64,000 bases of DNA from Deltaproteobacteria bacterium (GTDB taxonomy: Bacteria > Myxococcota_A > Polyangia > Polyangiales > JADJMO01). Made by a program: the position numbers and the translations under genes. The DNA lies in the NCBI GenBank assembly GCA_025363655.1, contig JANYDK010000121.1, forward strand, positions 186,001 through 250,000, in the 5' to 3' direction. How positions within the stretch are numbered: position 1 is the first letter of the stretch; each line of letters starts with the position of its first letter. Under the pieces are notes generated by a model that had not been told where the DNA came from, did not search any database, and saw nothing but the letters and a program-made list of their open reading frames with translations. Shown here one piece after another: positions 14,522 to 32,180 of the stretch.

Positions 14522-16708
14522 ATGAAGCGCTCCTTTCTTCGAGCAGTTCCCGTTTTTGCCGTCGCTGCGGTCGCCGCCGTCTCTGCCACGTCGGCGCGAG
14601 CGGACGACGTCCAGAGCTACACGACCGTCGAAGGTGACTCGTGCGAAGGGCTCGCGGCGAAGTTCTGGGGCGATCCGAAGGTGTACGCCAAGCTCCACGA
14701 GCTCAACCCGCAGATGGGTCCCGTACCCCATAAAATCAAGCCTGGAACGGTGCTCAAGGTGGCGAAGCCAGGGCCCGATGCGCGGGTGACCTTCATCCGC
14801 AACCACGTCGAGGCGGCGACGCCTGCCGTGCACCCGGCGGCGAACGGCGAGCCGCTGATGAAGGGGAACAAAGTCGACACGTTCGAGAAGTCGAACGCCG
14901 AGGTCACCTTCAAGGACGACAGTCGGTTGCAGCTCGCCGAGCAGACGCTGGTCATCATCCTCGGCAGCACCTTCAGCAAGGCGACGTTCGGCAAGACCGC
15001 CGAGGACACGACGCTGGTGAAGGGCAACCTCGCGGCGTTCCTCAGCGGCAGCGCGACCAAGAAGGTGGCGACGCCGTCGGGGAGCATCACCCTCGGTGGC
15101 GACGCGAAGATCGGCGTCGACGCGAAAGACGCCACGCGGCTCGCCGTCTACAAGGGCAAGTCGACGTTGAGCAACGCGGGCAAGAGCGTCGACGTCAAGG
15201 AAGGCTTCGGGAGCAAGGCCGAGAAGGGCAAGGCGCCGACGCCGCCGAGACCGCTCCCGATCGCGCCGACGTGGGTGAAGTCGATCGCGCCGCTGACGCT
15301 GACGACCGCGGGAGAGGTCGATCTCTCGGGCACGTTCGCGCCCGGCGTCGGCGGTCCGAAGGTCGTGTCGTGGCACGTGCAGCTCTCGCGTGACGCGTCG
15401 TTCAACGATCTCGTCCTCGACGCACAACACGCCGGCACGGCGACGACGTTCGACGCGCAAAAGCTCGCCGCAGGCCGTTATTTCGCGCGGGTCTCCGGCA
15501 TCGACGACGATTTCTTCGAGGGTCCTTGGGGCGCGGTGAGCACGTTCGACGTGGCGACGACGACGATCGTACCGGCGGCGGCCGGCAAGGGCGCCTCGCT
15601 CCAGATCACGCCCGGGATCTTCTGCGGCCTCGACGGCGCGCCACTCGTCGCGACCGCGTCGAGCGCATCGACTGGCAACGTCGGCCTCGCGCTCGCGCCG
15701 CTCCGTGCGCACAAGCTCGAGTGCGCGCTCGATGCTGCGGGCACCGGCGCCTCCGAGGTGTCGATCTCTGCCGAACAGTCTGGTCTCGCGACCGCGACCA
15801 CGGTGCTCGGCGAAGCGAGCTTCGACGGCGAGGCCGGCCATCGCGACGTGCGCATCACGCTCCTCGACCCCTCCGGCGCGCCCATCGTCGGCGCCCAAGT
15901 CGAGATGAAATCGACTGAATTTACCGTTGATCCGGTGAAGGCAGAGCCAGCCGGCGTCTACCTCGCGACGCTCCGCTGGAAGAGCGCATCCCCCGCGAGC
16001 AAGGTTCGATTCGTCGTCGAAGGCGTGCAGACGATCGACGTCGAGGTCCCCGCAGCGGGCCCCGACAGCGCACCACCGCCGAAGGCAGAGCCGACGACGC
16101 TGAAGCCGTTCCGCCTCGAGGTCGGCATCGTCGGGCTCGCGCAGCTCCCCTCTGACCCCCTCGGGGGCGGCGGCGGCATCGGGCTCGACCTCGGCGGGCG
16201 CTTCCTCGTGGGGAAGGGCGCCGTCACCGTCGGGCTACGGCCGATGTACGAACGTCACCTCGCGGGGAGCAGCCACGACATCGCCTGCAGCAGCGACGCG
16301 CCGGGCGACAGCGGCTGTCGTTTCGGCGCCGCCAACTACCGCTCGGCGATCGAGAGCGATCTCTTCTCGCTCGGCATCCCGATCACGTATCGCCTGAAAA
16401 ACGAGGCCAGTTCGTGGACGCCGTACCTCGGCGTGGTGCCGCAGCTGCTCTTCGATCGGACCAAGGAGGTCGTCGACGCCGGGCTCGGCCCGAGTGGTCA
16501 GCTGATCGGCGGTCAGAACGACGCTTCGTACGCCACCCGCTTCGCCCTCGCGACGATGCTCGGCGTTCAGGTGTCGACCAGCAGGGGCGGCCGAGGGTCC
16601 TTCTTCCTCGAGCTGGGATGGCGATTCGCCGCCCATCGCGAGGTCTCGGGGACGAACGCCGAGCCGAAGGGCCCGCTCGCCTGGCTGGGCTATCGCTTGG
16701 CCCTTTGA
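14522..16708 (+). CDS. LysM and FecR domain envelope protein with barrel-like C-terminus
   Basis: A 728-residue exported protein with a signal peptide (about 1-27). A LysM domain (about 31-80: YTTVEGDSC, FWGDPKVYAKLHELNP) binds peptidoglycan or related glycans. A FecR-like domain (about 85-225) carries repeated LVKGNLAAFLSG and GSITLGGDAKIGVDAK strands, as in FecR proteins that pair with LysM in Deltaproteobacteria. Fibronectin-like regions follow. The last 180 residues (from about 545) look like outer-membrane beta-barrel strands and end in a hydrophobic residue, LAL. It may tie an outer membrane barrel to the cell wall. Confidence 0.85.
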   Translation: MKRSFLRAVPVFAVAAVAAVSATSARADDVQSYTTVEGDSCEGLAAKFWGDPKVYAKLHELNPQMGPVPHKIKPGTVLKVAKPGPDARVTFIRNHVEAATPAVHPAANGEPLMKGNKVDTFEKSNAEVTFKDDSRLQLAEQTLVIILGSTFSKATFGKTAEDTTLVKGNLAAFLSGSATKKVATPSGSITLGGDAKIGVDAKDATRLAVYKGKSTLSNAGKSVDVKEGFGSKAEKGKAPTPPRPLPIAPTWVKSIAPLTLTTAGEVDLSGTFAPGVGGPKVVSWHVQLSRDASFNDLVLDAQHAGTATTFDAQKLAAGRYFARVSGIDDDFFEGPWGAVSTFDVATTTIVPAAAGKGASLQITPGIFCGLDGAPLVATASSASTGNVGLALAPLRAHKLECALDAAGTGASEVSISAEQSGLATATTVLGEASFDGEAGHRDVRITLLDPSGAPIVGAQVEMKSTEFTVDPVKAEPAGVYLATLRWKSASPASKVRFVVEGVQTIDVEVPAAGPDSAPPPKAEPTTLKPFRLEVGIVGLAQLPSDPLGGGGGIGLDLGGRFLVGKGAVTVGLRPMYERHLAGSSHDIACSSDAPGDSGCRFGAANYRSAIESDLFSLGIPITYRLKNEASSWTPYLGVVPQLLFDRTKEVVDAGLGPSGQLIGGQNDASYATRFALATMLGVQVSTSRGGRGSFFLELGWRFAAHREVSGTNAEPKGPLAWLGYRLAL

Positions 16709-16745: not shown

Positions 16746-17126
16746 ATGTCTGTCAGGAGCGTGCTGCTCGTCGACGACGAGCCCGACATTCGTCGAATCG
16801 GTCAGCTCGCGCTCCAGCGCGTTGCCAAGTGGGACGTGCGGCTCGCGTCGAGCGGTCCCGAGGCCGTGCAGCTCGCCGCCGCGGCAGTGCCCGATCTGAT
16901 CTTGCTCGACGTGATGATGCCGGGGGTCGACGGTCCGACCACGCTCGTCAAGCTGCGCGAGCTCGAAGGGCTGAAGACGACGCCGGTGATCTTCATGACC
17001 GCCAAGGTGCAGCGTCACGAGGTCGATCGTTACCTCGCGCTCGGCGCCGCCGGCGTCATCGCCAAGCCCTTCGATCCAATGACGCTCGCCACCCAAATCG
17101 TCGAGTTGCTCGCGGCCAAGCCATGA
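16746..17126 (+). CDS. Single-domain response regulator
   Basis: A 126-residue receiver without an output domain. It has the acidic pocket (VDDEPD, 9-14), phospho-acceptor Asp55 in LLDVMMPG, the switch Thr in FMTAK and the conserved Lys in IAKPFDP. Such proteins shuttle phosphate between kinases and Hpt proteins or bind targets directly. It is a close sister of the receivers at 21055-21438 and 25397-25780 (shared DGPTTL after the Asp and GVIAKPFDP). The stop overlaps the ATG of the next histidine kinase (ATGA), so the two are translationally coupled and probable partners. Confidence 0.92.
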   Translation: MSVRSVLLVDDEPDIRRIGQLALQRVAKWDVRLASSGPEAVQLAAAAVPDLILLDVMMPGVDGPTTLVKLRELEGLKTTPVIFMTAKVQRHEVDRYLALGAAGVIAKPFDPMTLATQIVELLAAKP

Positions 17127-19426
17127 GCGCTCCCTTGCCGAGCGACGAGGAAAGCCGCCTCGCGCGGCTCCGTGCGCTCGCCGTCCTCGATACGCCGACC
17201 GAGCCCGAGCTCGACGACATCATCGCGCTCGCCGCCGCGGTCTGCGACGTGCCGATCGCGCTCGTCAGCCTCGTCGACGCCGATCGCCAATGGTTCAAGG
17301 CCCGCCGCGGTCTCGTGGCCACCGAGACCTCGCGCGACATCGCCTTCTGCGCTCACGCCATCCACGGCTCCGAGCTCTTCGTCGTCGAGGACGCGACCTT
17401 GGACGCGCGCTTCTCCGAGAACCCGCTGGTGCGCGGCGAGCTCGGAATCCGCTTCTACGCAGGCATACCGCTGCGCTTCGAAGGTGAAGAAGGGAGCGCC
17501 ATCGGGACCCTCTGCGTCATCGATCGAAAGCCGCGTATCCTCACCGAGTCGCAGCGTGACGCGCTGAGCGCGCTCTGCCGTCAGGTCGTCGCCCACCTCG
17601 GCGAACGTCGTCGCGGCCGGCTCCTCGAAGAGCGCACCGTCCAGCTCCAAGACATCCTCGACAACGGCAGCGACCTCATCCAGACGGTCTCGCCCGAAGG
17701 GAAATTTCTCTTCGTCAACCGCGCTTGGTTCGAGACGCTCGGCTTCACGCCGGCCGATCTCCCCCAGCTGACGATGTTCGACGTCATCGCGCCCGAGCAC
17801 CACGCGGCCGCGCGCAAGCTCGTCGCGAAGCTCGTCGCCGGAGAAGAGACGCCGCCCATCGACACTGTCTTCATCGGGAAAACCGGGCGCCGCGTGCACG
17901 TCGAGGGCGTGGTCGACTGCCACTTCGTCGACGGCAAAGCAGAGCACACGCGCGGCATCTTCCGCGACGTGAGCGAGCAGCGGGCGGCCGAGGTCGAGAA
18001 GAGCCTCTACGCCGAGATCACTCGCGCGCTCCCCCTCGCGCTCCGCATCTACCACCTCGACGACGAGGACGACGACGCCTCGTTGCGCCTCGTCTTCGAG
18101 AACCCGGCCGCCGAGGGCGACGCCATCGCCGCCGGGAGCGTCGGGCGAAAAATCGACGAAATCGTCCCGCAATTGCGCGCGCTCGGCCTCCCTGCACTCT
18201 ATCGAAGCATCGCCCTCGGCGGGCCTGCACGCACCGTCGACGGCATCGGGTTTCGCACCCGCGAAGGGCAGATGAAGACGTGGACCATCCGCGCCTTCCC
18301 GCTCCCCGGACGGCAGGTCGGCGTGCTCATCCAGAACACCACCGAGCGCGTGCTCCTCGCCTCACGCCTCGAGACGCTGGTGCGCGGCCTCCAATCGGCG
18401 GTGGTGCTGGTCACCGAAGAGGGGACGTTGCTCGCGAGTCGTCTCTTCTACGAGCTCCTGGGGCTCCCGAGGCCGAGCACGCTCCTCACCGAGTTCCCCG
18501 AAGCGCTCCGCCGCATCGCCGACGCCTGTCGCGACTCGGAGGGTTGCCGGGTGCGCGCCGCCAAGGTGCTGACCGCGCCCTCGGTGCGACAGACCGACGA
18601 GCTCCTCTTCGCCGATGGACGCGTGATCGAGCGTGATTACCTGCCGATTCTCGTCCACGATCGCGAGCACGGTCACCTCTGGATGTACCGCGACATCAGC
18701 GAGCGCAAAGAGCTCGAGCGCATGAAGGACGAGTTCGTCTCCACCGTCTCGCACGAGCTGCGCACGCCGCTGACGTCGGTCTCGGGCGCGCTCAAGCTCC
18801 TCAGCTCGGGGGTCGTCGGCGACGTCGTCTCCGAGCGGCTCGAGCTGGTGCGCATCGCCGAGGTCAACTGCGACAGGTTGACGCGTCTCATCGACGACAT
18901 CCTCGAGCTGGAGAAGCTGGACGCCGGACGTCTCGAGCTCCATCGCACCGCCCTCGACGCGCACCTGCTCTCGAGCAAGCTCACCGACGCGCTGCAGGCG
19001 ACCGCCAAGCTCGCCGAGGTGTCGCTGCTGGTGGAGGGCAAGGCGAGCGAAGACGTCCTCGCCGACGGACATCGCATCACGCAGGTGCTCGCCAACTTGG
19101 TGTCGAACGCCATCAAGTTCTCCCCGCGCGGCGGCAGCGTGCGAATCTGTCTCGCCGACCGACCAGGTCGCGTCCACTTCGCGGTGCACGACTCCGGGCC
19201 GGGAATTCCCATGGACAAGCGCGATCGCCTCTTCGTTCGATTCCAACAGCTCGATGCCACCGACGGGAGACCGAAGGGCGGCACCGGCCTCGGCCTCGCC
19301 ATCGCCAAGGAGCTGGTCGTGCAGCACGGCGGCGACATCGGCGTCGAGTCGTCGCCCGGCGCCGGCAGCGTCTTCTGGTTCGAGCTCCCGACGGTGCGCG
19401 CCGCGAATGGGGAGGTCACGAGGTGA
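17123..19426 (+). CDS. GAF-PAS sensor histidine kinase, soluble
   Basis: A 767-residue kinase with no membrane helices. A GAF domain (about 25-160; LVSLVDADRQWFKA) is followed by a PAS domain (about 170-285; DNGSDLIQTVSPEGKFLFVN), one or two further PAS-like regions (about 300-530), HisKA with His544 (TVSHELRTPL) and a HATPase domain (about 640-765; NLVSNAIKFS, GPGIP, GGTGLGL). It autophosphorylates on His and passes phosphate to an Asp on a receiver. It has no receiver of its own, and lies between one stand-alone receiver and a second soluble kinase, overlapping both by four bases. Signal is probably cytosolic or small-molecule. Confidence 0.92.
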   Translation: MSAPLPSDEESRLARLRALAVLDTPTEPELDDIIALAAAVCDVPIALVSLVDADRQWFKARRGLVATETSRDIAFCAHAIHGSELFVVEDATLDARFSENPLVRGELGIRFYAGIPLRFEGEEGSAIGTLCVIDRKPRILTESQRDALSALCRQVVAHLGERRRGRLLEERTVQLQDILDNGSDLIQTVSPEGKFLFVNRAWFETLGFTPADLPQLTMFDVIAPEHHAAARKLVAKLVAGEETPPIDTVFIGKTGRRVHVEGVVDCHFVDGKAEHTRGIFRDVSEQRAAEVEKSLYAEITRALPLALRIYHLDDEDDDASLRLVFENPAAEGDAIAAGSVGRKIDEIVPQLRALGLPALYRSIALGGPARTVDGIGFRTREGQMKTWTIRAFPLPGRQVGVLIQNTTERVLLASRLETLVRGLQSAVVLVTEEGTLLASRLFYELLGLPRPSTLLTEFPEALRRIADACRDSEGCRVRAAKVLTAPSVRQTDELLFADGRVIERDYLPILVHDREHGHLWMYRDISERKELERMKDEFVSTVSHELRTPLTSVSGALKLLSSGVVGDVVSERLELVRIAEVNCDRLTRLIDDILELEKLDAGRLELHRTALDAHLLSSKLTDALQATAKLAEVSLLVEGKASEDVLADGHRITQVLANLVSNAIKFSPRGGSVRICLADRPGRVHFAVHDSGPGIPMDKRDRLFVRFQQLDATDGRPKGGTGLGLAIAKELVVQHGGDIGVESSPGAGSVFWFELPTVRAANGEVTR

Positions 19427-21027
19427 CGACGAACGCCGGACGTCCGACGACGATGACCGCGCACGGTCGGCTGAAAGAGATGGCCGACGCGTCGCTCGAT
19501 CAAATCGTCGCCATGGCGGTCGCCGCGACGCAGGCCGATCTCGGCGTCGTCGCGCTCCTCGACGAACATCGTCGCGCCTGGGACGTCACCGTCGGCGCCG
19601 CCGGTGAGAGCCGCAAGACCCTCTCCTTCTGCAGCTACGCGCTCCTCCAACCGGGCCCCTTCTGCATCGGCGATCTTTCCGCCGACGAGCGCTTCGCCGA
19701 CGACCCGATCGCCGCGCTCGGTCACCGCTCGGTGATTGGCGTCGTCATCACCGATGCGCAGGGAAACAAGCGTGGTGCGCTCTGCACCTTCGCCAAGACG
19801 CCCCGCAAGCTCGACCCGGCGGTGGGCAAGACGCTCGGTCTCCTCGCCGCCCACGCGTCCTCGCTGATCGGCATTCGTCACGGCATGACGGCGCTGCGCG
19901 AGAAGCATCGCCAACACCTCGCGCTCCTCGACACGTTGCAAGGCGTGATGCGCGCCGCCGGCCGCCTCGCCATCGTCGGCACCGACATCGCTGGCACCGT
20001 CAACTCCTTCAGCATCGGCGCCGAGCGCACCTTCGGTCACGCCGCCGTCGAGGTCGTGGGCAGGGTCGCCTTCTGCACGCTCCTCTCGCGCACCGAGCTC
20101 ACCGAACGTGGTCGCTCGCTCTCGCCCGACACCGAGGCGATGGGTCCCTTCGAAACGCTCCTCGCACTTCGTCGTGCGCGGCTCGAAGGCGGCAGCGGCG
20201 CGTTCCTCAGCGACGAGTGGTTGGCCTTGAAAAAAGGCGGAACGACGCTCCCCGTCTCGCTCGTCGTCGAGCCGGTCACCAACGAAGAGGGCGCGCTCTC
20301 CGGCTACGTCGCCATCTTCCAGGACATCACCGAAAGGCGCATCGCCGACGAGCTCAAGAGCGAGTTCATCTCCACCGTCAGCCACGAGCTGCGCACGCCG
20401 CTCACCTCCATCCTCGGCGCGCTCGGCCTCCTCCGCGGGCAAATCGGCGGTCCGCTCCCGCCCAAGGCCGCCGAGCTCGTCGACATCTCGCACCGCAACG
20501 GCGAACGCCTGCTTCGTCTCGTCAACGACATCCTCGACCTCCAGAAAATCGAGTCGGGCCACGTCAAGCTCGCGCTCGCACCCCATGATTTGCGCGCCAT
20601 CGCCGCACGTGTGGTCGAGACCGATCGCCCTTACGCCGAGCGCTTGCACGTCACGCTCGCGCTCTTGGGCGATCCCGGCCCCATCCAGGTCGACGTCGAC
20701 GCCGAGCGCATCGCGCAGGTGCTCACCAACCTCATCTCCAACGCCACCAAATTTTCCCCCGAGGGCTCGCAGGTCGACGTCGTCGTCGAGGCCGATGGTG
20801 GCCGCGCGCGCGTCTCGGTTCGCGATCACGGCCCGGGCATTCCCGAGACGTTGCGCCCGCGTCTATTCGGCAAATTCGTGCAAGCCGATGGCTCCGAGAG
20901 ACGCCAAGGCGGCACCGGTCTCGGCCTCAGCATCGTCAAGGCGATCGTCGAGCGTCACGGCGGCGTCGTCGGCTTCGAGTCGACCCTCGGCCAGGGCTCC
21001 ACGTTCACGTTCGAGTTGCCCCGTTGA
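19423..21027 (+). CDS. GAF-PAS histidine kinase, soluble
   Basis: A 534-residue kinase with GAF (about 15-155), PAS (about 175-300), HisKA with His321 (TVSHELRTPL) and HATPase (about 415-534; NLISNATKFSP, GPGIP, GGTGLGLS). No membrane helix and no receiver. The N-terminal GAF lacks the KARRGL-type word of the upstream kinase, so the sensors differ. The GTG start overlaps the upstream kinase stop (GTGA). Co-expression of two soluble kinases with one receiver suggests either two inputs into one relay or heterodimer formation, which the sequence cannot decide. Confidence 0.92.
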   Translation: MTTNAGRPTTMTAHGRLKEMADASLDQIVAMAVAATQADLGVVALLDEHRRAWDVTVGAAGESRKTLSFCSYALLQPGPFCIGDLSADERFADDPIAALGHRSVIGVVITDAQGNKRGALCTFAKTPRKLDPAVGKTLGLLAAHASSLIGIRHGMTALREKHRQHLALLDTLQGVMRAAGRLAIVGTDIAGTVNSFSIGAERTFGHAAVEVVGRVAFCTLLSRTELTERGRSLSPDTEAMGPFETLLALRRARLEGGSGAFLSDEWLALKKGGTTLPVSLVVEPVTNEEGALSGYVAIFQDITERRIADELKSEFISTVSHELRTPLTSILGALGLLRGQIGGPLPPKAAELVDISHRNGERLLRLVNDILDLQKIESGHVKLALAPHDLRAIAARVVETDRPYAERLHVTLALLGDPGPIQVDVDAERIAQVLTNLISNATKFSPEGSQVDVVVEADGGRARVSVRDHGPGIPETLRPRLFGKFVQADGSERRQGGTGLGLSIVKAIVERHGGVVGFESTLGQGSTFTFELPR

Positions 21028-21034
21028 TCGTCCC

Positions 21035-21056
21035 AGGGGCGCCGGCGACGGCCCCT
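21035..21056. terminator. Possible two-way hairpin between converging genes
   Basis: AGGGGC and GCCCCT form a six-pair stem around a ten-base loop, directly after the histidine kinase stop and touching the stop of the converging receiver gene. There is no T run, so factor-independent termination is doubtful. Confidence 0.3.
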
Positions 21057-21438
21057 ACACTGCGTCGAGCATCGCCAGGATTTGGGTGGGGAGACCGACC
21101 GGGTCGAAGGGTTTGGCGATGACGCCGCGGGCGCCGAGTTGGCGATAGGCGATGACTTCGTCGCCCCAGACGCGCGCGGTCATGAAGATCACCGGCACCT
21201 TGGCGAGGTGTGGCGCGGCGCGGAGGTGCGTCAGCGTCGTCGGTCCGTCCATCTCCGGCATCATCACGTCGAGGAGGATGACGTCGAGCGCTTCATCCGC
21301 TTTGGCGAGCGCCTCGCGACCCGACCCGGCGAGCTCCGCGGCCCAACCGGCGAAGTCGACGAGGCACAGCTGGCTGATGCGACGTACGTCGGGATCGTCG
21401 TCGACGATGAGCACGCGTAGATGACGCACGCACTTCAC
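21055..21438 (-). CDS. Single-domain response regulator
   Basis: A 127-residue receiver: VDDDPD at 12-17, phospho-acceptor Asp57 (LLDVMMPEMDG), FMTAR switch and IAKPFDP Lys. It is a sister of the receivers at 16746 and 25397. The chosen start is GTG at 21438; an internal GTG three codons later is possible. It converges on the soluble kinase gene and diverges from a membrane histidine kinase gene, so it may be expressed separately from its relatives. No output domain. Confidence 0.9.
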   Translation of the reverse strand: MKCVRHLRVLIVDDDPDVRRISQLCLVDFAGWAAELAGSGREALAKADEALDVILLDVMMPEMDGPTTLTHLRAAPHLAKVPVIFMTARVWGDEVIAYRQLGARGVIAKPFDPVGLPTQILAMLDAV

Positions 21439-21677
21439 CTAGCAAGGACCGCGCGCGGGGCTTTCTCTCGCGCGAGGTCAGACACCGCAGGAGTCTCCGG
21501 GCGCTCGGCGTCGGTCGCGACCGTGCTCGGCTGTAGCAACCTGCGACGTGTTGCACTTTGCAGCAGTGCGCGAGCGGATGGCGACGCGAGCAAAACGGCC
21601 ATGAGAGACTCGGCGCCAGCAGCTGCCGAGGGTGCGGTTCGTGCAGCGAAGGGAAGCCCGGGAGGAAGTTGTCGGTC

Positions 21678-23363
21678 GTGCAAGCGGAGGCGAGAGTCGA
21701 GGCCGCGAAGGTCGACTTGGTCTACGGCCAGGTCCGGCTGGGCCTCGTCGTCAACGTCGTCAACGCCGGCATCTGGACGGCGGCCTCGTGGAGCACGATC
21801 CCGCACACGTGGATGATCGCTTGGTTCGTCGCGATCATCGTCGTCAATTTCGGTCGCTTCCTCCTCGCCCTCGCCTACGACCGACGATCGTCCGACGCGA
21901 AGCACGCAGCAGACTCGATCGCTCGGTGGCGCGATCGCTTCGTCGTCGGCGCCGCGGCCTCGGGCACCCTCTGGGGCCTCGCCGGCAGCCTCCTGCTACC
22001 CGAACAGGGCCTACTTTTCTCGATCGATCTCGCGGTGCTCCTCGGCATGGTCGCCGGCGCGGTGCCGCTCATGACGTCGGTGCTGCGCGCGTATCACGCG
22101 TTTCTCCTTCCGCTCTTCATCCCCCTCTTCGTGCGGCTCGTCTCCTTCGGCACCGGTCTCCACCTCGCGATGGCGGGCCTCAGCGCGATCTTCATCGCCG
22201 CCATGATCGGCACCGCGCGACGCATCCACGCGACCATCGACGAGTCGCTCGTCCTTCGCTTCCACAACCAGGCGCTCACCGCCGAGCGAGCCGAGGCCGA
22301 TGCCGAGCGCGCGCGCATCGGCAAGAAGCACGAGATGCACGTCGAGCGCACGCCGGTGGCGGTCATCGAGTGGACCCCGGAGCGTCGCGTCGCCTCGTGG
22401 AATCCGGCCGCACACGCCATTTTCGGCTTCACCCGCCAAGAGGCGCTCGGTGGCACCTCCGAGCTCTTCGTCGCCCCGGCCGATCGCGCCGCCGCCGAGG
22501 CCTCGTTCGCCTTGGTGCTCGAGGGTCGGGCCAGCACCGGCACCTGGCGCGCGCACACGAAGAGCGGAGCGGTGATCGTCTGCGAGTGGTTCGAGACGCC
22601 GCTCCTCGATGACGACGGCGTGGTCATCGGCGCCGCCAGCATCGCCCTCGACGTCACCGAACGGCACGCGCTCGAGCGGATGAAGGGCGAGTTCGTCGGC
22701 ACCGTCAGCCACGAGCTGCGCACGCCGCTGACGTCGATCCGCGGCGCGCTCGGTCTCATCGCCGGCGGCGCGGTCGGCGAGGTCTCCCCCGAGATCCTCG
22801 AGCTCGTCGAGATGGGCGCCGCCAACTGCGATCGCCTGGTGCGGCTGATCAACGACATCCTCGACTTCGAGCGCGTCCGCGGCGACGACGTGCCCCTCAC
22901 CCGACGACGCGTCGATCTCGCGAAGCTCCTCCTCGAGACGGTCGAAGCGGCGCGGGGCCTCGCCGTCGAGCAGCGCATCGAGCTCGTCACCGACACCCCG
23001 CAGGGTGGCGTCCCGGTGATTGGCGATCCCGATCGACTCGTCCAGGTGTTCACGAATCTCCTGGGAAATGCGGTCAAATTCGCGCCCTCGGGGAGCGACG
23101 TGCACGTCGATCTCGAGCACCACGAAGGCCGCGCCATCGTCCGCGTCCGCGATCACGGCCCCGGCGTACCGTCGTCGTTCCGCCAACACATCTTCCAGCC
23201 GTTCACCCAGGCCGACAGCTCCGATCGACGCGCGCGGGGCGGAACCGGTCTCGGGCTCAGCATCAGCAAGAGCATCGTCGAGCGTCACGGCGGCACCATC
23301 GGCTTCGAGAGTGAGGGAGGAGAAGGCGCGACCTTCTGGGTCGAGCTGCCCGCGGCGCCCTGA
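21678..23363 (+). CDS. Six-helix membrane PAS histidine kinase
   Basis: A kinase of 561 residues if GTG 21678 is used; GGAGG at 21661-21665 favours it, or TTG 21669. Upstream in-frame sequence is Cys-rich and unlike protein. Six membrane helices (about residues 10-185) form a MASE-like integral sensor with few periplasmic residues. PAS (about 215-330), HisKA with His345 (TVSHELRTPL) and HATPase (about 440-560; NLLGNAVKFAP, GPGVP, GGTGLGLS) follow. It has no receiver. An Hpt gene begins 16 bases after its stop, so the membrane kinase and the Hpt protein are probably made together. Confidence 0.88.
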   Translation: MQAEARVEAAKVDLVYGQVRLGLVVNVVNAGIWTAASWSTIPHTWMIAWFVAIIVVNFGRFLLALAYDRRSSDAKHAADSIARWRDRFVVGAAASGTLWGLAGSLLLPEQGLLFSIDLAVLLGMVAGAVPLMTSVLRAYHAFLLPLFIPLFVRLVSFGTGLHLAMAGLSAIFIAAMIGTARRIHATIDESLVLRFHNQALTAERAEADAERARIGKKHEMHVERTPVAVIEWTPERRVASWNPAAHAIFGFTRQEALGGTSELFVAPADRAAAEASFALVLEGRASTGTWRAHTKSGAVIVCEWFETPLLDDDGVVIGAASIALDVTERHALERMKGEFVGTVSHELRTPLTSIRGALGLIAGGAVGEVSPEILELVEMGAANCDRLVRLINDILDFERVRGDDVPLTRRRVDLAKLLLETVEAARGLAVEQRIELVTDTPQGGVPVIGDPDRLVQVFTNLLGNAVKFAPSGSDVHVDLEHHEGRAIVRVRDHGPGVPSSFRQHIFQPFTQADSSDRRARGGTGLGLSISKSIVERHGGTIGFESEGGEGATFWVELPAAP

Positions 23364-23378
23364 CAGCTCTTCCAGTCC

Positions 23379-23699
23379 GTGCTTTCCTTCGAGTGGAGGA
23401 AGTTCTTGGGATTCGACGAGGACCTCGAGGCCGAGCTCGCCGCAGCGCGCCGCAACTATGCGGCGAGCGTCCCCGAGTTGCTCGACACGATGTCGGCCGC
23501 GCTCGCTGCCGGCAACTTCGACGAGCTGCGCCAGATCGCCCATCGCGTCCGTGGCACGGCAGGCTGCTACGGCATGATGGAGGTGAGCGACGCGGCCGGC
23601 GCCATCGAAGACGTGCTCTCCGATACCTCCGATACGTGGGCCCCCTTCGATTCAGCCGCGCTGCACGCTCACATCATGACCGCGCGGAAGGCGCTCTAG
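23379..23699 (+). CDS. Stand-alone Hpt phosphotransfer protein
   Basis: A 106-residue helical protein with the Hpt signature IAHRVRGTAGCYGM; His55 is the phosphorylation site. Hpt proteins carry phosphate between receivers in multistep relays. Start is GTG, 16 bases after the membrane kinase. The last 48 bases overlap the 3' end of the converging kinase-receiver gene on the other strand. A second Hpt (25074-25400) with a different core (VHKLKGSTGSYGY) lies on the far side of that gene. Confidence 0.87.
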   Translation: MLSFEWRKFLGFDEDLEAELAAARRNYAASVPELLDTMSAALAAGNFDELRQIAHRVRGTAGCYGMMEVSDAAGAIEDVLSDTSDTWAPFDSAALHAHIMTARKAL

Positions 23700-25064
23700 C
23701 TCACGAATGAGCGGCATCAGCCGCTCGACGAAGCCATCGCCCTTGCCGACGAAGCGGTTGATGCCGAGCTGACGGAGGAGCTGCCGATCGTGCTCCTGCG
23801 CGCCGGCGCTGATCGGCACGATGGTGCACCGATCGGCGTGGTGGGTGCCGCGCAGATACATGCAGAGCTCGATGCCGTTCATGCGCGGCATCTGCAAATC
23901 GAGGAGCAGGAGATCGACCACCTGCACCTGCAGCCTCTCGAGCGCGCGTTCGGCGTCGTGGAGGACGTCGACCTGCGCCGTCGGCACCGCCCGGAGCACG
24001 CAATAGCGCACGAGCCGAGCGATGTCAGGATCGTCGTCGACCACGAGGACGCGGAACGGCTCGGTCGATTCGCGCGTCGGCGAGGTTTCGTTCCGCAGCT
24101 TCCGGAGGCGGAAGGCGACCGCATCCATGCCGCTCGGACGCTCGAACGGATCTTTCAGCAGCAGCTCGCGGAGGAGCGCCGTGAGCGCCCTCGGCACGTC
24201 GTCGCGATCGATCCTCGGCACCTCGTCTTCCACTTGTTTGCGGAGCACTTCGGCGGTGCTCCCGAGGAAGGGAGGCGCGAAGGTGAGCAGCTCGTAGAGG
24301 AGAATGCCGAGCGAATAGAGGTCGACCCGGAAGAGCTCGCGCGGATCGACCGCCGCCGTCATCAGCTCGGGCGCGATGTACTCCGGTGTGCCGGCGACGC
24401 TGGCCGGGACGCCGCGCGACTCCGAGTGCGAGAGACCGAAATCCATGAGGACGACGCGTCCGCCCGGCGCCAACATGACGTTGGCGGGCTTCAAATCACG
24501 GTGCGCGAGCCCCGCGCGGTGCAGCTCGCCGAGCGCATCGGCGAGGGCGAGCGAGACGTCGACGACCTCGGCGACCGACAGCGGCAGTCGGTCGCGCCGC
24601 CTTCGATCGAGGAACGTCCAGAGATCGACGCCATAGACGCGCTCCATCACCACGTACGGACGTCCCTCGACGCTACCGAGCGCGTGCACGGTGATCATCG
24701 AGGGGTGACGAAATGCCGCCAGCGCTTGCGCCTCGTCGCGCAGCGAGTCGGGATTGACGTGTGGCCAACAGAGCTTGATCGCCACGCGTCGTCCGAGGGA
24801 ACGATCGTAGGCCTCGTAGACCTGCCCCATCCCACCTTCGCCGAGCTTTTCGCGAACTTCGTAGACGCCGTCGAGCACCGTGCCCGGCGCGACGACGTCG
24901 GTAGCGCGCCCCGTGGGGCCCGCTACCGCGAGCTCTGGAACGGTGGCCTTGTCGAGGTTGTCGAGCGTATCCGCACGATTCACGTCGGTCTCGGGGTCGA
25001 AGGACGGCGAAGGCACCCCGTGGGGTCTGCACGATGCGTTCCGCGATGGCGAGCCCTGAGCCAC
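23652..25064 (-). CDS. Ser/Thr protein kinase fused to an intact receiver domain
   Basis: A 470-residue soluble protein. After a 60-residue tail comes a Hanks-type kinase (about 66-325): GEGGMGQVY, Lys97, HRDLKPAN (188-195), DFG (208-210), APE. A receiver follows (about 336-455) with VDDDPD, phospho-acceptor Asp389 (LLLDLQMP), Ser419 switch and Lys441. Both halves keep their catalytic residues, so His-Asp phosphorylation could control Ser/Thr phosphorylation. GTG start is nine bases after the stop of the upstream Hpt gene in a three-gene minus-strand operon (receiver, Hpt, kinase-receiver). The usual order in eukaryote-like kinases with receivers varies; a C-terminal intact receiver is uncommon. 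Confidence 0.92.
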   Translation of the reverse strand: MAQGSPSRNASCRPHGVPSPSFDPETDVNRADTLDNLDKATVPELAVAGPTGRATDVVAPGTVLDGVYEVREKLGEGGMGQVYEAYDRSLGRRVAIKLCWPHVNPDSLRDEAQALAAFRHPSMITVHALGSVEGRPYVVMERVYGVDLWTFLDRRRRDRLPLSVAEVVDVSLALADALGELHRAGLAHRDLKPANVMLAPGGRVVLMDFGLSHSESRGVPASVAGTPEYIAPELMTAAVDPRELFRVDLYSLGILLYELLTFAPPFLGSTAEVLRKQVEDEVPRIDRDDVPRALTALLRELLLKDPFERPSGMDAVAFRLRKLRNETSPTRESTEPFRVLVVDDDPDIARLVRYCVLRAVPTAQVDVLHDAERALERLQVQVVDLLLLDLQMPRMNGIELCMYLRGTHHADRCTIVPISAGAQEHDRQLLRQLGINRFVGKGDGFVERLMPLIRELERLPRGHDVSVQRG

Positions 25065-25073
25065 GAGCGCAGC

Positions 25074-25400
25074 TCAGGGCGGAACGGCCGGAATCGCGGC
25101 GCGGGCGGCGACGAGGAGCGCGTCGATGTGGCGCCATTGCTCGTCCGTCGGCGGGCGCTTCTCCTCGACGCAATCGTAGAGGAGCTCGTGCACCTCGGCG
25201 AGACGTGCCGAGAGAGCTTCGTACCCGTACGAGCCGGTGCTCCCCTTCAACTTGTGCACGTCGGTGAACGCGACCGCGACGAGGACCTCGGAGCCCTGCG
25301 CTGCTTTCAGTGAAGCTTCGACGGCGCCGAGCTTCTCCGGCAACGCCTCGAGGTAGCTGCGCCGCAGACGTACCAGCTTGTCCGTCGTCGACTCGCTCAT
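25074..25400 (-). CDS. Stand-alone Hpt phosphotransfer protein
   Basis: A 108-residue helical protein with VHKLKGSTGSYGY; His49 is the predicted phosphorylated residue. Its ATG overlaps the stop of the upstream single-domain receiver (ATGA), and its stop is nine bases before the kinase-receiver gene. This order suggests a relay receiver Asp54, Hpt His49, kinase-receiver Asp389, but pairing is inferred only from position. Confidence 0.88.
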   Translation of the reverse strand: MSESTTDKLVRLRRSYLEALPEKLGAVEASLKAAQGSEVLVAVAFTDVHKLKGSTGSYGYEALSARLAEVHELLYDCVEEKRPPTDEQWRHIDALLVAARAAIPAVPP

Positions 25401-25780
25401 CGCGGGTCCGCGGCGGCGAGGAGGGCGCGAATCTGCGTCGGGAGCATCACCGGATCGAACGGTTTGGCGATGACGCCGATGGCGCCGAGCGAGCGATAAC
25501 GCTGCACGTCTCGTTCGTGCACGTTGGCGGTGAGGAAGATGACGCGCGGTTTGGCGATGCCAGGCTTCTCCAGCAGCTTGCCCAACGTCGTCGGCCCATC
25601 CATCCCCGGCATCATCGCGTCGAGGAGCACGACGTCGATCGAGTCGTCGATGCGTGCGAGCGCTTCTTCGCCGCTGCCGGCCAAGACCACACGATCGCCG
25701 GCGACGTCGACGAGGCTCAGCTCCCCGATGCGCCGGATGTCGTCGTCGTCGTCGACGAGGAGGACGGTGAGGGCAGCCAC
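25397..25780 (-). CDS. Single-domain response regulator
   Basis: A 127-residue receiver: VDDDDD at 9-14, phospho-acceptor Asp54 (LLDAMMPGMDG), FLTAN switch and IAKPFDP Lys. Third sister of the receivers at 16746 and 21055. The GTG at 25780 is chosen because the receiver fold starts two residues later; longer in-frame sequence upstream overlaps the divergent activator gene and is Ser/Arg-rich noise. First gene of the minus-strand operon with Hpt and kinase-receiver. Confidence 0.9.
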   Translation of the reverse strand: MAALTVLLVDDDDDIRRIGELSLVDVAGDRVVLAGSGEEALARIDDSIDVVLLDAMMPGMDGPTTLGKLLEKPGIAKPRVIFLTANVHERDVQRYRSLGAIGVIAKPFDPVMLPTQIRALLAAADPR

Positions 25781-25855
25781 CCAGCGAGCCGTATCACTGC
25801 CTCGCGCCCGTCGGGAAGGATGGCAAGCCCTGGTCAGGCGCACCAGTGTGTGTGG

Positions 25856-25861
25856 TACGCT
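25856..25861 (+). promoter_or_regulatory. TACGCT -10-like hexamer before the NtrC-type gene
   Basis: TACGCT ends ten bases before the GTG at 25872 and lies inside the short palindrome GGTACGCTACC (25854-25864). TGGTCA at 25831-25836 could be a -35 at 19-base spacing. The palindrome could also be an operator half-site pair. Confidence 0.4.
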
Positions 25862-25871
25862 ACCGCCCCCA

Positions 25872-27269
25872 GTGGCCTCGCAATCACCCCAGCCGGCGGA
25901 GCACTCGTCGCGAGAACGAGCCCGCGTGCTCCTCGTCGAGGACGACGAAGCCGTCGGCGAGCTCCTCTCTGCGAGCATCGACGCCTTCGAAGTCGTCTGG
26001 CGTCGCTCGGCCGAGGACGCGCTCACCGCCATCGATCGCGAGAGCTTCGACGCGGTGGTGACCGACCTCTACATGCCGGGCATGAACGGCATCGAGCTGT
26101 GCGAGCGCATCGCGCAGAATCGCCCTGATTTGCCGGTGATCGTCCTCACCGCGCACGGCCGCCTCGACACCGCGGTCGCCGCCATCCGCGCTGGTGCCTA
26201 CGACTTCCTGGTCAAGCCGCCCGCCGAGCAAGCGCTCGCCCTCGCCCTCGAACGCGCCGTGCGTCATCGCGCGCTCCACGCCGAGGTGAAACGTCTCCGC
26301 GAAGGTGCCCGCGCCGCCTCTCCGTTCGACGGGGTCCTCGGTAAGAGCGCGGCGATGCAGAAGCTCTACGATCTCCTCGAGCGCATCGCCGAAGCCGAGG
26401 CCACCATCCTCCTCACGGGTGAATCCGGCACCGGAAAAGAAGCCGTCGCTCGCGCCATCCACCGCCGCAGCAAGCGCGCCGCCGGTCCCTTCGTCGCCGT
26501 CAACTGCGCGGCCATGCCCGAGGCGCTCCTCGAGAGCGAGCTCTTCGGTCACGCCAAAGGCGCCTTCACCGACGCCAAGACCGCGCGCACCGGCCTCTTC
26601 GCGATGGCCAACGGCGGCACGCTCTTCCTCGACGAAATCGGCGAGATGCCGATCGGCCTCCAACCAAAGTTGCTGCGCGCGCTGCAAGAGCGCGTCGTCC
26701 GGCCGGTCGGCGCCTCGAAAGAGCAGCCCATCGACGTCCGCGTCCTCGCCGCGACCAACGTCGACCTGCAGGCCGCGATGGCCGAGAAGCGCTTCCGCGA
26801 AGACCTCTATTTCCGCATCAGCGTCATCCAGGTCGAGCTCCCGCCCCTCCGCGCCCGCGGCAACGACGTGCTCCTCCTCGCCCAGCACTTCGTCGAGCAC
26901 TTCGCCGGCCGCACCGGCAAAGCCGTCAAAGGCGTCGCCCCCGCCACCGCGCAAAAACTCCTCGCCTACGCCTGGCCCGGCAACGTCCGCGAGCTGCAAA
27001 ACTGCATCGAGCGCGCGGTCGTCCTCACCAACCTCGACCAACTCGGCGTCGACGATCTCCCGGAAAAACTCCGCGCCGGTCCCTCCGCGCCCCTCCTCGT
27101 CTCCGGCGACGACGCCGGCGAGCTGGTGACGATGGAAGAGATCGAAAAGCGCTACATCAAGCGCGTCCTCGAGGTCACGGCAGGCAACAAGACGGTTGCT
27201 GCGAGGGTCCTCGGGTTCGACCGCACGACCCTCTATCGCAAGATGGAACGCTACGGATTCAGTAGCTAG
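25872..27269 (+). CDS. NtrC-family sigma-54-dependent response regulator
   Basis: A 465-residue transcription activator. Receiver (about 17-130): VEDDEA, phospho-acceptor Asp65 (VVTDLYMPG), LTAHG, LVKPP. AAA+ domain (about 150-385): Walker A GESGTGKE at 183-190, the sigma-54 contact motif GAFTDA at 230-235, FLDEIGEM as Walker B, and the R-finger region FREDLYFR. A Fis-type helix-turn-helix closes the protein (about 438-461, NKTVAARVLGFDRTTLYRK). Phosphorylation should allow ATP-driven opening of sigma-54 promoters. It diverges from the receiver/Hpt/kinase operon across 91 bases and is the natural transcriptional output of the cluster. Confidence 0.95.
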   Translation: MASQSPQPAEHSSRERARVLLVEDDEAVGELLSASIDAFEVVWRRSAEDALTAIDRESFDAVVTDLYMPGMNGIELCERIAQNRPDLPVIVLTAHGRLDTAVAAIRAGAYDFLVKPPAEQALALALERAVRHRALHAEVKRLREGARAASPFDGVLGKSAAMQKLYDLLERIAEAEATILLTGESGTGKEAVARAIHRRSKRAAGPFVAVNCAAMPEALLESELFGHAKGAFTDAKTARTGLFAMANGGTLFLDEIGEMPIGLQPKLLRALQERVVRPVGASKEQPIDVRVLAATNVDLQAAMAEKRFREDLYFRISVIQVELPPLRARGNDVLLLAQHFVEHFAGRTGKAVKGVAPATAQKLLAYAWPGNVRELQNCIERAVVLTNLDQLGVDDLPEKLRAGPSAPLLVSGDDAGELVTMEEIEKRYIKRVLEVTAGNKTVAARVLGFDRTTLYRKMERYGFSS

Positions 27270-27676: not shown

Positions 27677-27708
27677 TCGCAGGCGATGTGTGCCACGACG
27701 CTCGGCCG

Positions 27709-29199
27709 ATGCTCCGGACAGCAGCGCGACGCGCCTTCGCTCAGGCCGTGCCGATTTTTCTCGGCGCGGCCGCGATGATTTTTTCCGCCTGCTTCCACAA
27801 CGGCAACGGTGACGCGCCGCCCGACCAGGATTTCTACTTCCCGGTCGGGCTCGCGCTCAGCGCGTCGGGGCAGCACCTCTTCGTCGTCAACAGCAACTTC
27901 GACCTCCGCTACAGCGCCGGCACTCTCCTCGCGCTCGACACGAAGAAGATCGAAGACGCGGCGAAGGCTTGCGCCGATGCCGATCCGACGGACGCGAGCT
28001 GCACGAAGTCGGCAGTGACGCCCTACGTCGATGCCTCGGTGCGCATCGGGGCCTTCGGTGCCGACGTCGTCGAGACGGGCGTCTACAAGGCCGCGACGCC
28101 GGGCGTGCGCGAGGGCCGTCTCCTCATTCCGGTTCGTGGCGACGCGACGCTCACCTTCGTCGACTACCGCGAGGCCGCCGATCTTCCGGGAGGCGTCGCC
28201 TTCTATTGCAACTCCACGGCTGCAGCTCCGGCCGGCGATTCGTGCGCAGCGTCTTGGCGCGTCGGCGCCGATCCCACCGCCAACAGTCGTCAGCTCGCGC
28301 TCGAGGGCGAGCCGTTCGCGGTCGCGGTGCCGACGTTCTGGCCGACGGCGGCCTGTTCGCCCACCGATCCGGCGAGCGCAGCCGATCCCCCGCGCTGCCA
28401 AGAGCCGCGCCTCAGTCGTGGCATCGCCGCCACCGTCCACCAAATCAGTGGTGACGTCAGCGTCTTCGTCGGCACCGCGATCGGTGAAGCAGGCTCGATC
28501 CCCGGGGCTCGATTGGCCTTCACGCTCACGGGCCTGCCCGGCGGCGGCACGTTCATCACGCCGCTCGACCTCACCGACGAGTCGCCTTTCACGCCGCGAT
28601 TCCTCGTCACCAATCGATCGCAAGCCGCGGTTTACGTGGTGTCGTACTTCGGCGATCGCGGCGTCGTCGATCGCGGCTTCCTCAGCGTCACCGACGTGGT
28701 GCCGATTCCCACGCAGTCGGGCGGCTTCGACAGCCGTGGCATCGTCGTCGACCCGCCGGGCCCGGACGAGACGCGGCCGATTCGCGTCTTCGTCACCAGC
28801 CGCTCGCCCGCCTCGCTGATCATCGGCGAAATCGATCCCAAGCTCCGCCGCCTGCACTTCATCACCAATCAGTCGCTCCCCATCGGCCCCTCGCGCATCC
28901 TCCGCGCCCGCCTGAAAAAGGTCATGCCCGATGGCACGGTGAAGACGCGCACCAAGCTCTTCATCACCTCGTTCGACACGCGCTACATCACCTCGTTCGA
29001 TCCCGACACCGGGCTCCTCGGCAACGTCGTGCGCACCGGCAAGGGGCCGTACGCGATGGCCGTGGACGAGACCAACGGGTACGCGTTCATCAGCAATTTC
29101 ACCGAATCGACGGTGCAGGTGATGGAGCTCGATCCGACGAGGCACCCGGACCTCGCCGACAAGATCATCTACACCGTCGGTGTTCCGAGGACGCCATGA
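27709..29199 (+). CDS. Secreted lipoprotein, beta-propeller-like
   Basis: A 496-residue lipoprotein; lipobox FSAC gives Cys28. The body contains propeller-like blades: FYFPVGLALSASGQHLFVVN at the start, RFLVTNRSQAAVYVVS, and PYAMAVDETNGYAFISN with VQVMELD near the end, like YVTN/YncE repeats. Central cysteines suggest disulphides. The ATG at 27709 is preferred over GTG 27688 because it gives a normal signal peptide. Its stop overlaps the ATG of the next gene (ATGA). The two proteins are probably made together and share the opening theme of a lipoprotein followed by YL/VVN repeats. Confidence 0.8.
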   Translation: MLRTAARRAFAQAVPIFLGAAAMIFSACFHNGNGDAPPDQDFYFPVGLALSASGQHLFVVNSNFDLRYSAGTLLALDTKKIEDAAKACADADPTDASCTKSAVTPYVDASVRIGAFGADVVETGVYKAATPGVREGRLLIPVRGDATLTFVDYREAADLPGGVAFYCNSTAAAPAGDSCAASWRVGADPTANSRQLALEGEPFAVAVPTFWPTAACSPTDPASAADPPRCQEPRLSRGIAATVHQISGDVSVFVGTAIGEAGSIPGARLAFTLTGLPGGGTFITPLDLTDESPFTPRFLVTNRSQAAVYVVSYFGDRGVVDRGFLSVTDVVPIPTQSGGFDSRGIVVDPPGPDETRPIRVFVTSRSPASLIIGEIDPKLRRLHFITNQSLPIGPSRILRARLKKVMPDGTVKTRTKLFITSFDTRYITSFDPDTGLLGNVVRTGKGPYAMAVDETNGYAFISNFTESTVQVMELDPTRHPDLADKIIYTVGVPRTP

Positions 29200-32180
29200 C
29201 GCGCGCTCGCAGTCTGTATCCCTTCCGTTCATTGGCGCTCGGCGCGCTCGCCACCGTCACCCACGCGCTCGCCGTCGGATGCAGCCAGACGCCGGTGCTG
29301 ACGCCGGTGCGCTCGATGGATCGTCCGCAGGACATCGCCTACCTCTGTCTGCAACTGCTGCCCGACGGAAAGTCGTGGAAGGGCGCGCCGCTCGAGAAGT
29401 GCGCGTACGAGCCGACGACCTTGATTCCGAGCAACCTCGATGCGACGTACCGACTGCACGCGGTCATCACGCAGGTGACGCGTGGTGAGCTCGCGGTCGC
29501 CGACCTCGGCAACTCGCCGCTCGACATCGCGACGGGCACGAACCAGCTCGTCAACGTCAACCCTGGGCTCCCGGGCTTCAATTTCCTGCCCGTCAGCACC
29601 ATCCCCACCGACGTCGTCGTCCACCCCGACGGGCGCGCGGTGTACGTCGCGAGCGGTCGCGACCGGCGCATCGACATCATCCCGTCCGAGCTCTTGCGCG
29701 GGCCGATTCCGAGCAGCCTCGAAGGCGGCGGTCCGGTCCCCTGGCCCCACGTCGATTTGGCGAAAGAAGACGGCCAACCAACTCGGCTCGCGGTCGGCGG
29801 CGACGGAGACAAGATCAAGCGCCTCTATGTCGTCCTCCCCGAGGCGGCCGGTGGCACCAAGCTCGCGGTCTACGATATCGCGGCCAACGCGATCGTTCCG
29901 CCGCGCCTCGCCGACATCCAGCTCGTGACGCGCACGCCCGACGTCGTGCAGGTGGCGCAGCTCGGGTGCGGACCGACCGGCACCAACGCGCCCTGGTGGT
30001 ACGACTATCGTCCGGGCGACCTCAAGTGCGGCGCGACGACGCACGCTCCCGCCCCACCGGCGCCGCTTCCTCCGGTGTTCACGCCGGCAACCCCGCACCT
30101 CACGGGCGTCGCCGTCGCGGGTGACTACCTCTATGCCGGCGACGACGGCGAGACGGTCGTCCACGTCTTCGATCTGCGCACCGGCATCGAGAGCGAACGT
30201 CTCTCGGTGGGCGGAAAAATAAGGCGATTGTCGGTCAGCGAGCCGGTCGCCGACGAGGTCGTTGGCAACAATTTCTGGGCCATCGAGGCCTGCGAGAACA
30301 ACGGTTGGGTCGGCGACGGCCAGGACCATTCGGCCAACACCAAGGTCAGAGACTCTCTCGGCGGATTGTGCCGTGCGCATCGCTACCTCTACGGAGTCGT
30401 TCCCGACGATTTTGCCGGCGGCGACGGCGCGCTCCTCGTCGTCGATCTCCCCGTCAAGTTCACCGGCATCACGAAGTCGGTGCGGCTGGGCACGTACTCG
30501 CACGCGACCGAGACCATCGATTTCGCGCACGCGAGCATTCAGCAACCGCTCGGCTGCGATGCGCCGCTCCTCAATCCGCAGCGCCTCCCGCTCGGCCAGT
30601 ACGGCCTCACCGGACTCAACGCCGTGCCGGCGCGCAGCGTCGCGTTCATGCGCTTCGACCCGCCGCAGGGCCCGCTCGGTGGGGAGCGATATGCGGCGCG
30701 CTGCGTCCCGGTCAACGACACCAGCTCCATCACCGGCGACACCAACCTCGACAACAGCATTCGCACGGTCGAGCAGGCGTGGCGTGGCACCGACGTGGCG
30801 AGCGGCGTCACCCCGCGGCGCTTCCGTGGCACCTTCGCTTTCGTCGCGATGACCAACGGTTCGATCAACGTCGTCGACATCGACGACTACGACTCGGCCT
30901 GTCGCGGTCCTTCCGCGGCCACCAGCCCGACCGCCCCGGGCACGGTCGTGACCGGCGGCTTCAACGGTCCGTCCTTCGACGAGCTTCCGTTGCGCATCAC
31001 CGCGCCGCAGCCGGCTGCCGACAATACGAGCACGACCACCGAAGAGTTCTTCAACCCGGTGCGCCGACATCACCCTCGTACGGGCCGTTTCTACACGGTC
31101 GACGTGCTGCCGACGGTGGTGAACTTCGCCGCCTCGGTGAAGGGCACGTCCATCGCGTTCCTTCCCATCGAGGGGACGAACACGGCGGCCACCGTCAATC
31201 CGCAGCTCATCCCCATCGGCTCCCCGGGCACGACGGTCAGCGCTTCGTTCAACCCCAACGAGCACATCGTCCCCGCCACCGACAACCCCTACGCGGTCAC
31301 CTCCGAGAGTTGGACCTCCACCTTCGAGGGTCCGATCCCCGGCTTCGGTACCACCGCAGGTTCGTTCCACCAAGACGGGGCCAACGCCATCTTCGAGGAC
31401 GAGGGTGGGGGTTTCTGCAGCCGTGGCGTCGAGGCGTTCGGCGACGTCAAGACGCACGACATCCTCTCGATCGTCGACGACCTCTGCGACGTCGCCAGCG
31501 GCGAGTGCACGCAGACGGTCTACGACGAGTGCAACCGCACCTTCACCGCGCTCGACACCACCGATCTGAACCAGATCCTCCCGCGCACGCGTGACTTCGT
31601 CATCGGCACCGCCACGCAGGGCAAGCTCGAGCTCGTGCAGCACTTCGAGCTCGACAAAAATCGCGCGATCCAAGCCGTCGACGGTGTCGACACCGCGGCC
31701 GTCAAGCGCTGCTTTCCCGGCCTCACGAAGTACACGATTCGTGCGCGCGACAAGTGGATCGTCGTCGGCGGGGCGACTGGCTACCTCCACAAGGTGAGGC
31801 CCGATGCCACTGGCAAGTGCTTCATCGACACCACGCTCCCCTCGACGTATCACGGGCGCATCACCGAGCTGCCGCCGACCACCACCGTCGCCTCGGTGCA
31901 GGCCAACGCCTGCCTCCGCTTCATCAACCCGGCGTGGCAGTGGGCGATTCGCTCCGGCACCACGGTGACGCAGCGCGATTTCCAAATCGCCTTCACCTCG
32001 CGCTTCAACTTCACGCCGCTCACGCTCGGCGGCGGCAACCTGCCGATGTCGGTGGCGCCGGTCGCGAAATACGTCGGCGGGCTCGACGTGCTCCGCTGGA
32101 ACCAGATGAGCGTCATCGACGCCGATTTCCGCGGCCTCACCATCTTCGGCTTCGACACCAGCGCCAAAGTCATCAACTAG
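29196..32180 (+). CDS. Very large secreted lipoprotein of unknown function
   Basis: A 994-residue lipoprotein with lipobox LAVGC (Cys29). Blade-like words recur (VVHPDGRAVYVASGRDRRIDI; VAVAGDYLYAGDDGETVVHVFD; FAFVAMTNGSINVVDID), so the N-terminal two thirds is probably a beta-propeller. Scattered cysteine pairs lie in the middle and C-terminal parts. I do not recognise a family or active site. The ATG overlaps the stop of the smaller propeller lipoprotein, and mutS starts 11 bases after its stop, so all three may be one transcript. A surface-scaffold or polymer-binding role is a guess. Confidence 0.8.
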   Translation: MTRARSLYPFRSLALGALATVTHALAVGCSQTPVLTPVRSMDRPQDIAYLCLQLLPDGKSWKGAPLEKCAYEPTTLIPSNLDATYRLHAVITQVTRGELAVADLGNSPLDIATGTNQLVNVNPGLPGFNFLPVSTIPTDVVVHPDGRAVYVASGRDRRIDIIPSELLRGPIPSSLEGGGPVPWPHVDLAKEDGQPTRLAVGGDGDKIKRLYVVLPEAAGGTKLAVYDIAANAIVPPRLADIQLVTRTPDVVQVAQLGCGPTGTNAPWWYDYRPGDLKCGATTHAPAPPAPLPPVFTPATPHLTGVAVAGDYLYAGDDGETVVHVFDLRTGIESERLSVGGKIRRLSVSEPVADEVVGNNFWAIEACENNGWVGDGQDHSANTKVRDSLGGLCRAHRYLYGVVPDDFAGGDGALLVVDLPVKFTGITKSVRLGTYSHATETIDFAHASIQQPLGCDAPLLNPQRLPLGQYGLTGLNAVPARSVAFMRFDPPQGPLGGERYAARCVPVNDTSSITGDTNLDNSIRTVEQAWRGTDVASGVTPRRFRGTFAFVAMTNGSINVVDIDDYDSACRGPSAATSPTAPGTVVTGGFNGPSFDELPLRITAPQPAADNTSTTTEEFFNPVRRHHPRTGRFYTVDVLPTVVNFAASVKGTSIAFLPIEGTNTAATVNPQLIPIGSPGTTVSASFNPNEHIVPATDNPYAVTSESWTSTFEGPIPGFGTTAGSFHQDGANAIFEDEGGGFCSRGVEAFGDVKTHDILSIVDDLCDVASGECTQTVYDECNRTFTALDTTDLNQILPRTRDFVIGTATQGKLELVQHFELDKNRAIQAVDGVDTAAVKRCFPGLTKYTIRARDKWIVVGGATGYLHKVRPDATGKCFIDTTLPSTYHGRITELPPTTTVASVQANACLRFINPAWQWAIRSGTTVTQRDFQIAFTSRFNFTPLTLGGGNLPMSVAPVAKYVGGLDVLRWNQMSVIDADFRGLTIFGFDTSAKVIN

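Follow-up and report, generated by a model that had tools for sequence, protein, structure and literature searches.

The window, that is, the whole stretch of 64,000 nucleotides that was analysed, encodes a protein in which a Hanks-type Ser/Thr kinase domain is followed by a C-terminal receiver (kinase-REC; Table 1), surrounded by genes for histidine kinases (HK), single-domain receivers (REC) and stand-alone histidine phosphotransfer proteins (Hpt). The kinase-REC open reading frame is complete, with a GTG start at 25064, a stop at 23652 and 470 amino acids. The Pkinase match of Pfam covers residues 68-316 (E 1.8e-41, 142.7 bits versus a cut-off of 31.7) and the Response_reg match residues 339-441 (E 9.4e-18), in agreement with an earlier note on this DNA that had described a Ser/Thr kinase with an intact C-terminal receiver. 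The catalytic residues of the kinase are intact, namely the glycine loop, Lys97 (AIK), Glu111, H188-R-D190, D208-F-G and APE, as are those of the receiver, VDDD 342-345 with the acidic pair D343/D344, the acceptor Asp389, S419 and K441; the residues quoted in the earlier note (Lys97, HRD, DFG, VDDD, Asp389 and Lys441) were all correct. K97, E111, H188-R-D190 and D208-F-G are invariant among 24 aligned homologues, and the residue check covered 41 homologues. Judged by these features, the protein is a predicted Hanks-type Ser/Thr protein kinase, and its receiver, with acidic pair, Asp, Ser/Thr and Lys in place, is predicted to be phosphorylatable. Kinase-REC does not follow the typical response regulator layout of an N-terminal receiver and an output domain; as in hybrid kinases, the receiver comes last in the chain.

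The AlphaFold2 model of kinase-REC has a mean pLDDT of 84, with both domains mostly above 90 and low confidence for residues 1-50; the underlying alignment contained just two distant fusions, so the arrangement of the domains is left without interpretation. The nearest solved structures to the kinase domain found by Foldseek are the PknB/PknA kinases, at 30-33% identity. Among the best 25 NCBIfam models, none was reached at its cut-off.

Table 1. The kinase-REC gene and neighbouring two-component genes, with positions in the window
Feature	Position	Strand	Basis
REC0, single-domain receiver	16746..17126	+	56% identity to REC2 over 106 aa
HK1, GAF-PAS histidine kinase without receiver; ATG overlaps REC0 stop	17123..19426	+	Pfam, sequence
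HK2, GAF-PAS histidine kinase without receiver	19423..21027	+	Pfam
REC1, single-domain receiver, between HK2 and HK3	21055..21438	-	Pfam; 62% identity to REC2 over 105 aa
HK3, membrane-type PAS histidine kinase	21558..23363	+	Pfam HisKA, HATPase_c, PAS_4; hydrophobic segments in first 215 residues
Hpt1, stand-alone histidine phosphotransfer protein, His55 (AHRVRG)	23379..23699	+	Pfam Hpt, E 3.8e-12
Kinase-REC, predicted Hanks-type Ser/Thr kinase (aa 68-316) with C-terminal receiver (aa 339-441)	23652..25064	-	Pfam, residue checks, AlphaFold2, Foldseek
Hpt2, stand-alone histidine phosphotransfer protein, His49 (VHKLKG; HxxKG motif)	25074..25400	-	Pfam Hpt, E 7.6e-8
REC2, single-domain receiver, GTG start, first gene of predicted operon	25397..25780	-	Pfam Response_reg, E 2.8e-20 on longer ORF; start from sequence
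NtrC-type response regulator (REC, sigma-54 AAA+, Fis HTH), start uncertain	25848..27269	+	Pfam; candidate starts

The REC2 and Hpt2 genes overlap by 4 nt, Hpt2 ends 9 nt ahead of the kinase-REC start on the same strand, and the three genes form one tightly packed predicted operon on the minus strand. Hpt1 is convergent with kinase-REC, the two gene ends overlapping by 48 nt, and HK3 lies 15 nt upstream of Hpt1. Both Hpt matches are above the Pfam cut-off and each protein keeps its phospho-histidine, which bears out the two Hpt genes that the earlier note had placed on either side of the kinase gene. On the plus strand, REC0, HK1 and HK2, and then HK3 and Hpt1, point toward the kinase-REC operon. 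REC0, REC1 and REC2 are paralogous (56-62% identity), and none of the three histidine kinases has a receiver of its own according to Pfam. The gene for the NtrC-type regulator is divergent from the operon, and this regulator is a possible branch partner of the relay. Histidine kinase, intermediate receiver, Hpt and terminal receiver are thus all encoded within 9 kb (window 16746-25780), and kinase-REC is the sole multidomain receiver protein in this set, which holds all the parts of a predicted His-Asp-His-Asp phosphorelay whose last receiver is part of a Ser/Thr kinase.

Several further genes were observed in the window. A gene for a HAMP-adenylate/guanylate cyclase overlaps another Ser/Thr kinase gene (10270-11757) by 4 nt (window 8543-11757), and a FecR-domain protein with an Invasin_D3-like match is encoded just upstream of REC0 (window 14522-16708). 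Downstream of the NtrC-type gene there are two large overlapping open reading frames that have no Pfam match (window 27688-32180).

Genes for Hpt proteins are few in the genome to which the window belongs (9.0 Mb; 15 Hpt matches, spread over about ten genes, and at least 155 kinases), and kinase-REC is flanked by two of its few stand-alone Hpt genes. Judging by its size, kinome and gene content, this genome is probably that of a myxobacterium. This genome encodes four kinase-REC fusions, and the family is widespread in relatives. No Hpt was found within 6 kb of the other three fusions, nor within 4 kb of any other listed non-fusion kinase of the same genome. In seven genomes, six of which had been chosen for a partner gene near the fusion, an Hpt lies within 2.6 kb of 15 of the 31 fusions versus none of 119 other kinases. 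Because of this choice, a second count was made in 20 unselected genomes. Here an Hpt gene lies at most 2.6 kb from 13 of 49 fusions (0.30 expected under random placement) versus 0 of 26 other kinases. Any HK, Hpt or REC gene within 2.5 kb was found for 35/52 fusions versus 3/41 kinases taken as controls in those genomes (P 1.4e-9). The genomes are related to one another, and P values treat them as more independent than they are. The linkage is seen across several families of the order and in differing gene orders. Chance placement of Hpt genes next to the fusion was considered and is ruled out by the rarity of these genes together with the counts in the seven and in the 20 genomes. The Hpt link is not obligatory, because 17 of the 52 fusions are without any such neighbour and the other three of this genome are without a nearby Hpt.

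The pairing of kinase-REC fusions with Hpt or HK genes recurs in dozens of related genomes. In four of these loci (L160, L169, L170 and L171), a Pfam-confirmed HK-REC-REC-Hpt gene immediately precedes the fusion in the same orientation, and these simpler two-gene systems leave the predicted wiring unambiguous. Other arrangements include fusion, REC and HK-Hpt in this order (L161, L162 and L164), HK followed by the fusion (L174, L176 and L177), and an Hpt gene directly after the fusion (L058). L165 reproduces the layout of the window itself, the fusion being preceded by an Hpt gene and facing a convergent pair of REC and HK genes. On an Acidobacteriota contig (L080), the kinase-REC fusion converges on a gene whose product is an HK-REC-Hpt protein with a beta-propeller sensor. 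The phospho-histidine is kept in all 27 Hpts detected. We also observe an Hpt-REC-GGDEF gene (L077:3673-5355) in whose cluster there are histidine kinases as well as a kinase-receiver fusion.

In a tree of kinase domains (167 rows, with no fungal sequence included), fusions of this order fall into two supported clades, one of 34 rows with 33 fusions and the other of 23 rows, all fusions. The Acidobacteriota fusion L080 and a kinase-REC-HD protein of Planctomycetota (L085) are placed outside both clades, and the fusion must therefore have originated repeatedly or be ancient; these two were the only fusions among the matches listed in a motif scan of genome contigs. The Planctomycetota protein (Gemmata-like; L085:5710-7914), with its HD_5 domain, possibly unites three signalling types. 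The acceptor Asp, the second acidic residue, the Ser/Thr and the Lys are all intact in the receivers of 51 of the 52 fusions (acceptor Asp in 51, Lys in 52 and Ser/Thr in 52). For comparison, ~10% of bacterial receivers are without one of the five residues (PMC8510515). The sole degenerate receiver belongs to a protein with two kinase domains (L175:5464-8589), in which the acceptor Asp is Glu and the second acidic residue is Pro. In a close relative whose kinase is 53% identical (L047:246-1595), the chain stops behind this domain, a natural loss of the receiver. A chance fusion or a decayed receiver is ruled out by the conservation of the residues and by the kinase tree.

We propose, with a probability of roughly 0.7, that a multistep phosphorelay ends in kinase-REC, with a Ser/Thr kinase as its output. 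One or more of HK1-3 would autophosphorylate on His. The phosphoryl group would then go to one of the single-domain receivers, either REC2, which belongs to the same operon, or its paralogues REC0 and REC1; from there it would move to Hpt2 (or Hpt1) and on to Asp389 of kinase-REC. The phosphorylated receiver would alter the activity or the partner access of the attached kinase, which might then phosphorylate Ser/Thr targets. The parts, the active-site residues, the operon and the recurrent linkage are observed, and from these we infer the flow of phosphate, its order and the control of the kinase. The wiring cannot be read from the genes because the window has two Hpts, three histidine kinases and three single receivers, and it is a caveat to the relay reading that two-component genes cluster in any case. 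The coupling of a predicted His-Asp phosphorelay to kinase-REC is well supported by gene content and linkage, which suggests that this relay may switch a Ser/Thr kinase rather than a transcription factor. The earlier note had proposed that phosphorylation of Asp through an Hpt sets the activity of the kinase. The Hpt link in this proposal has gained strong support from comparative genomics (13/49 versus 0.3; an HK-REC-REC-Hpt gene in four relatives; receivers intact in 51/52), and an effect of receiver phosphorylation on kinase-REC activity is what we infer. It also seems fairly probable, somewhat less so than the relay at this locus, that there is a widespread and hitherto undescribed class of bacterial phosphorelays whose final receiver resides in a Hanks-type kinase, such that His/Asp signals would be converted to Ser/Thr phosphorylation in one protein; its predicted members come from one order, where several families have them, and in single cases from Acidobacteriota, with the adjacent HK-REC-Hpt gene, and Planctomycetota.

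The receiver might instead serve for docking. Receivers as a rule bind Hpts and HKs, and many two-component genes surround kinase-REC, so the receiver might bring the Ser/Thr kinase to such partners, with an HK, an Hpt, a REC or the NtrC-type regulator being phosphorylated on Ser/Thr and Asp phosphorylation merely tuning the binding. Phosphorylation of response regulators by Ser/Thr kinases is indeed documented (PMC12189002). Mere docking, however, would need neither the Asp nor the Lys, which are yet kept in 51/52 receivers, whereas the Asp was lost in some lineages of fungal Rim15 receivers (PMC8510515), and we consider docking unlikely.

Less likely still is a phosphate sink or branch, in which the receiver would drain phosphoryl groups from the Hpt and so tune a main pathway that leads to the NtrC-type regulator, the output of the kinase being separate. 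The divergent sigma-54 response regulator gene and the several single receivers would fit such a role, but the fusion is often the sole multidomain receiver protein beside an HK or Hpt gene in relatives (L160, L169, L170, L171, L174, L176 and L177) and therefore looks like the end point of a relay. An ordinary mosaic, that is, a chance joining of receiver and kinase with no regulatory role in a genome rich in both, might be expected where there are at least 155 kinases; it is disfavoured by conservation and appears very improbable, given that the fusions form two supported clades and are not scattered, their residues are conserved, and Hpt and HK neighbours recur.

Two-component systems and Hanks-type kinases are commonly seen as distinct signalling routes, connected by cross-phosphorylation. 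If the relay reading holds, a conserved family that has both domains, with genes for Hpts and histidine kinases alongside, would act as a dedicated link that converts one kind of signal into the other. Receiver control of a kinase is a question shared with fungal Rim15, the role of whose receiver is stated as not yet studied (PMC8510515). In the open-access literature, a scope that excludes the myxobacterial kinome of Perez et al. (2008), no experimental work was found on any Hanks kinase from bacteria that contains or is controlled by a receiver. Kinase-receiver fusions are probably already listed in domain censuses, and their Hpt linkage appears to be the new part. The kinase-REC family would offer a compact, purifiable system in which the control of a eukaryote-like kinase by a receiver can be studied directly.

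The closest precedents for kinase-REC are fungal Rim15, which is not known to have an Hpt gene linked to it, and Pseudomonas PA3346. Among other known systems, PknB and PknA of Mycobacterium tuberculosis have the closest solved folds to the kinase domain of kinase-REC and are without a receiver. They are transmembrane proteins regulated by ligands and dimerization. In the split phosphorelay Spo0F-Spo0B-Spo0A, a single receiver, a separate phosphotransferase and a terminal receiver are employed, as proposed here, with the difference that Spo0B is outside the Hpt family and the terminal output is DNA binding. In SypE of Vibrio fischeri, a single chain holds a Ser kinase and a phosphatase domain of opposing action, both under the control of a receiver, but the kinase belongs to the RsbW/HATPase type and not to the Hanks type. 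Pseudomonas aeruginosa PA3346 (HsbR), which adjoins hptB and is served by that Hpt, resembles the proposed scheme in that phosphorylation of a receiver controls a Ser/Thr-directed enzyme; unlike kinase-REC, it has an N-terminal receiver and, in place of a Hanks kinase, a Ser/Thr phosphatase as output. In particular, phosphorylation of its receiver stimulates the phosphatase (PMC12189002). Fungal Rim15, a PAS-kinase with a C-terminal receiver whose Asp is kept in basidiomycete and mucoromycete members and lost in ascomycetes, belongs to the eukaryotic Greatwall family, whereas the kinase domain of kinase-REC is nearest to bacterial PknA/PknB; like kinase-REC, it combines a Ser/Thr kinase and then a C-terminal receiver in one chain, and its hosts have a Ypd1-type Hpt (PMC8510515, PMC2566311).
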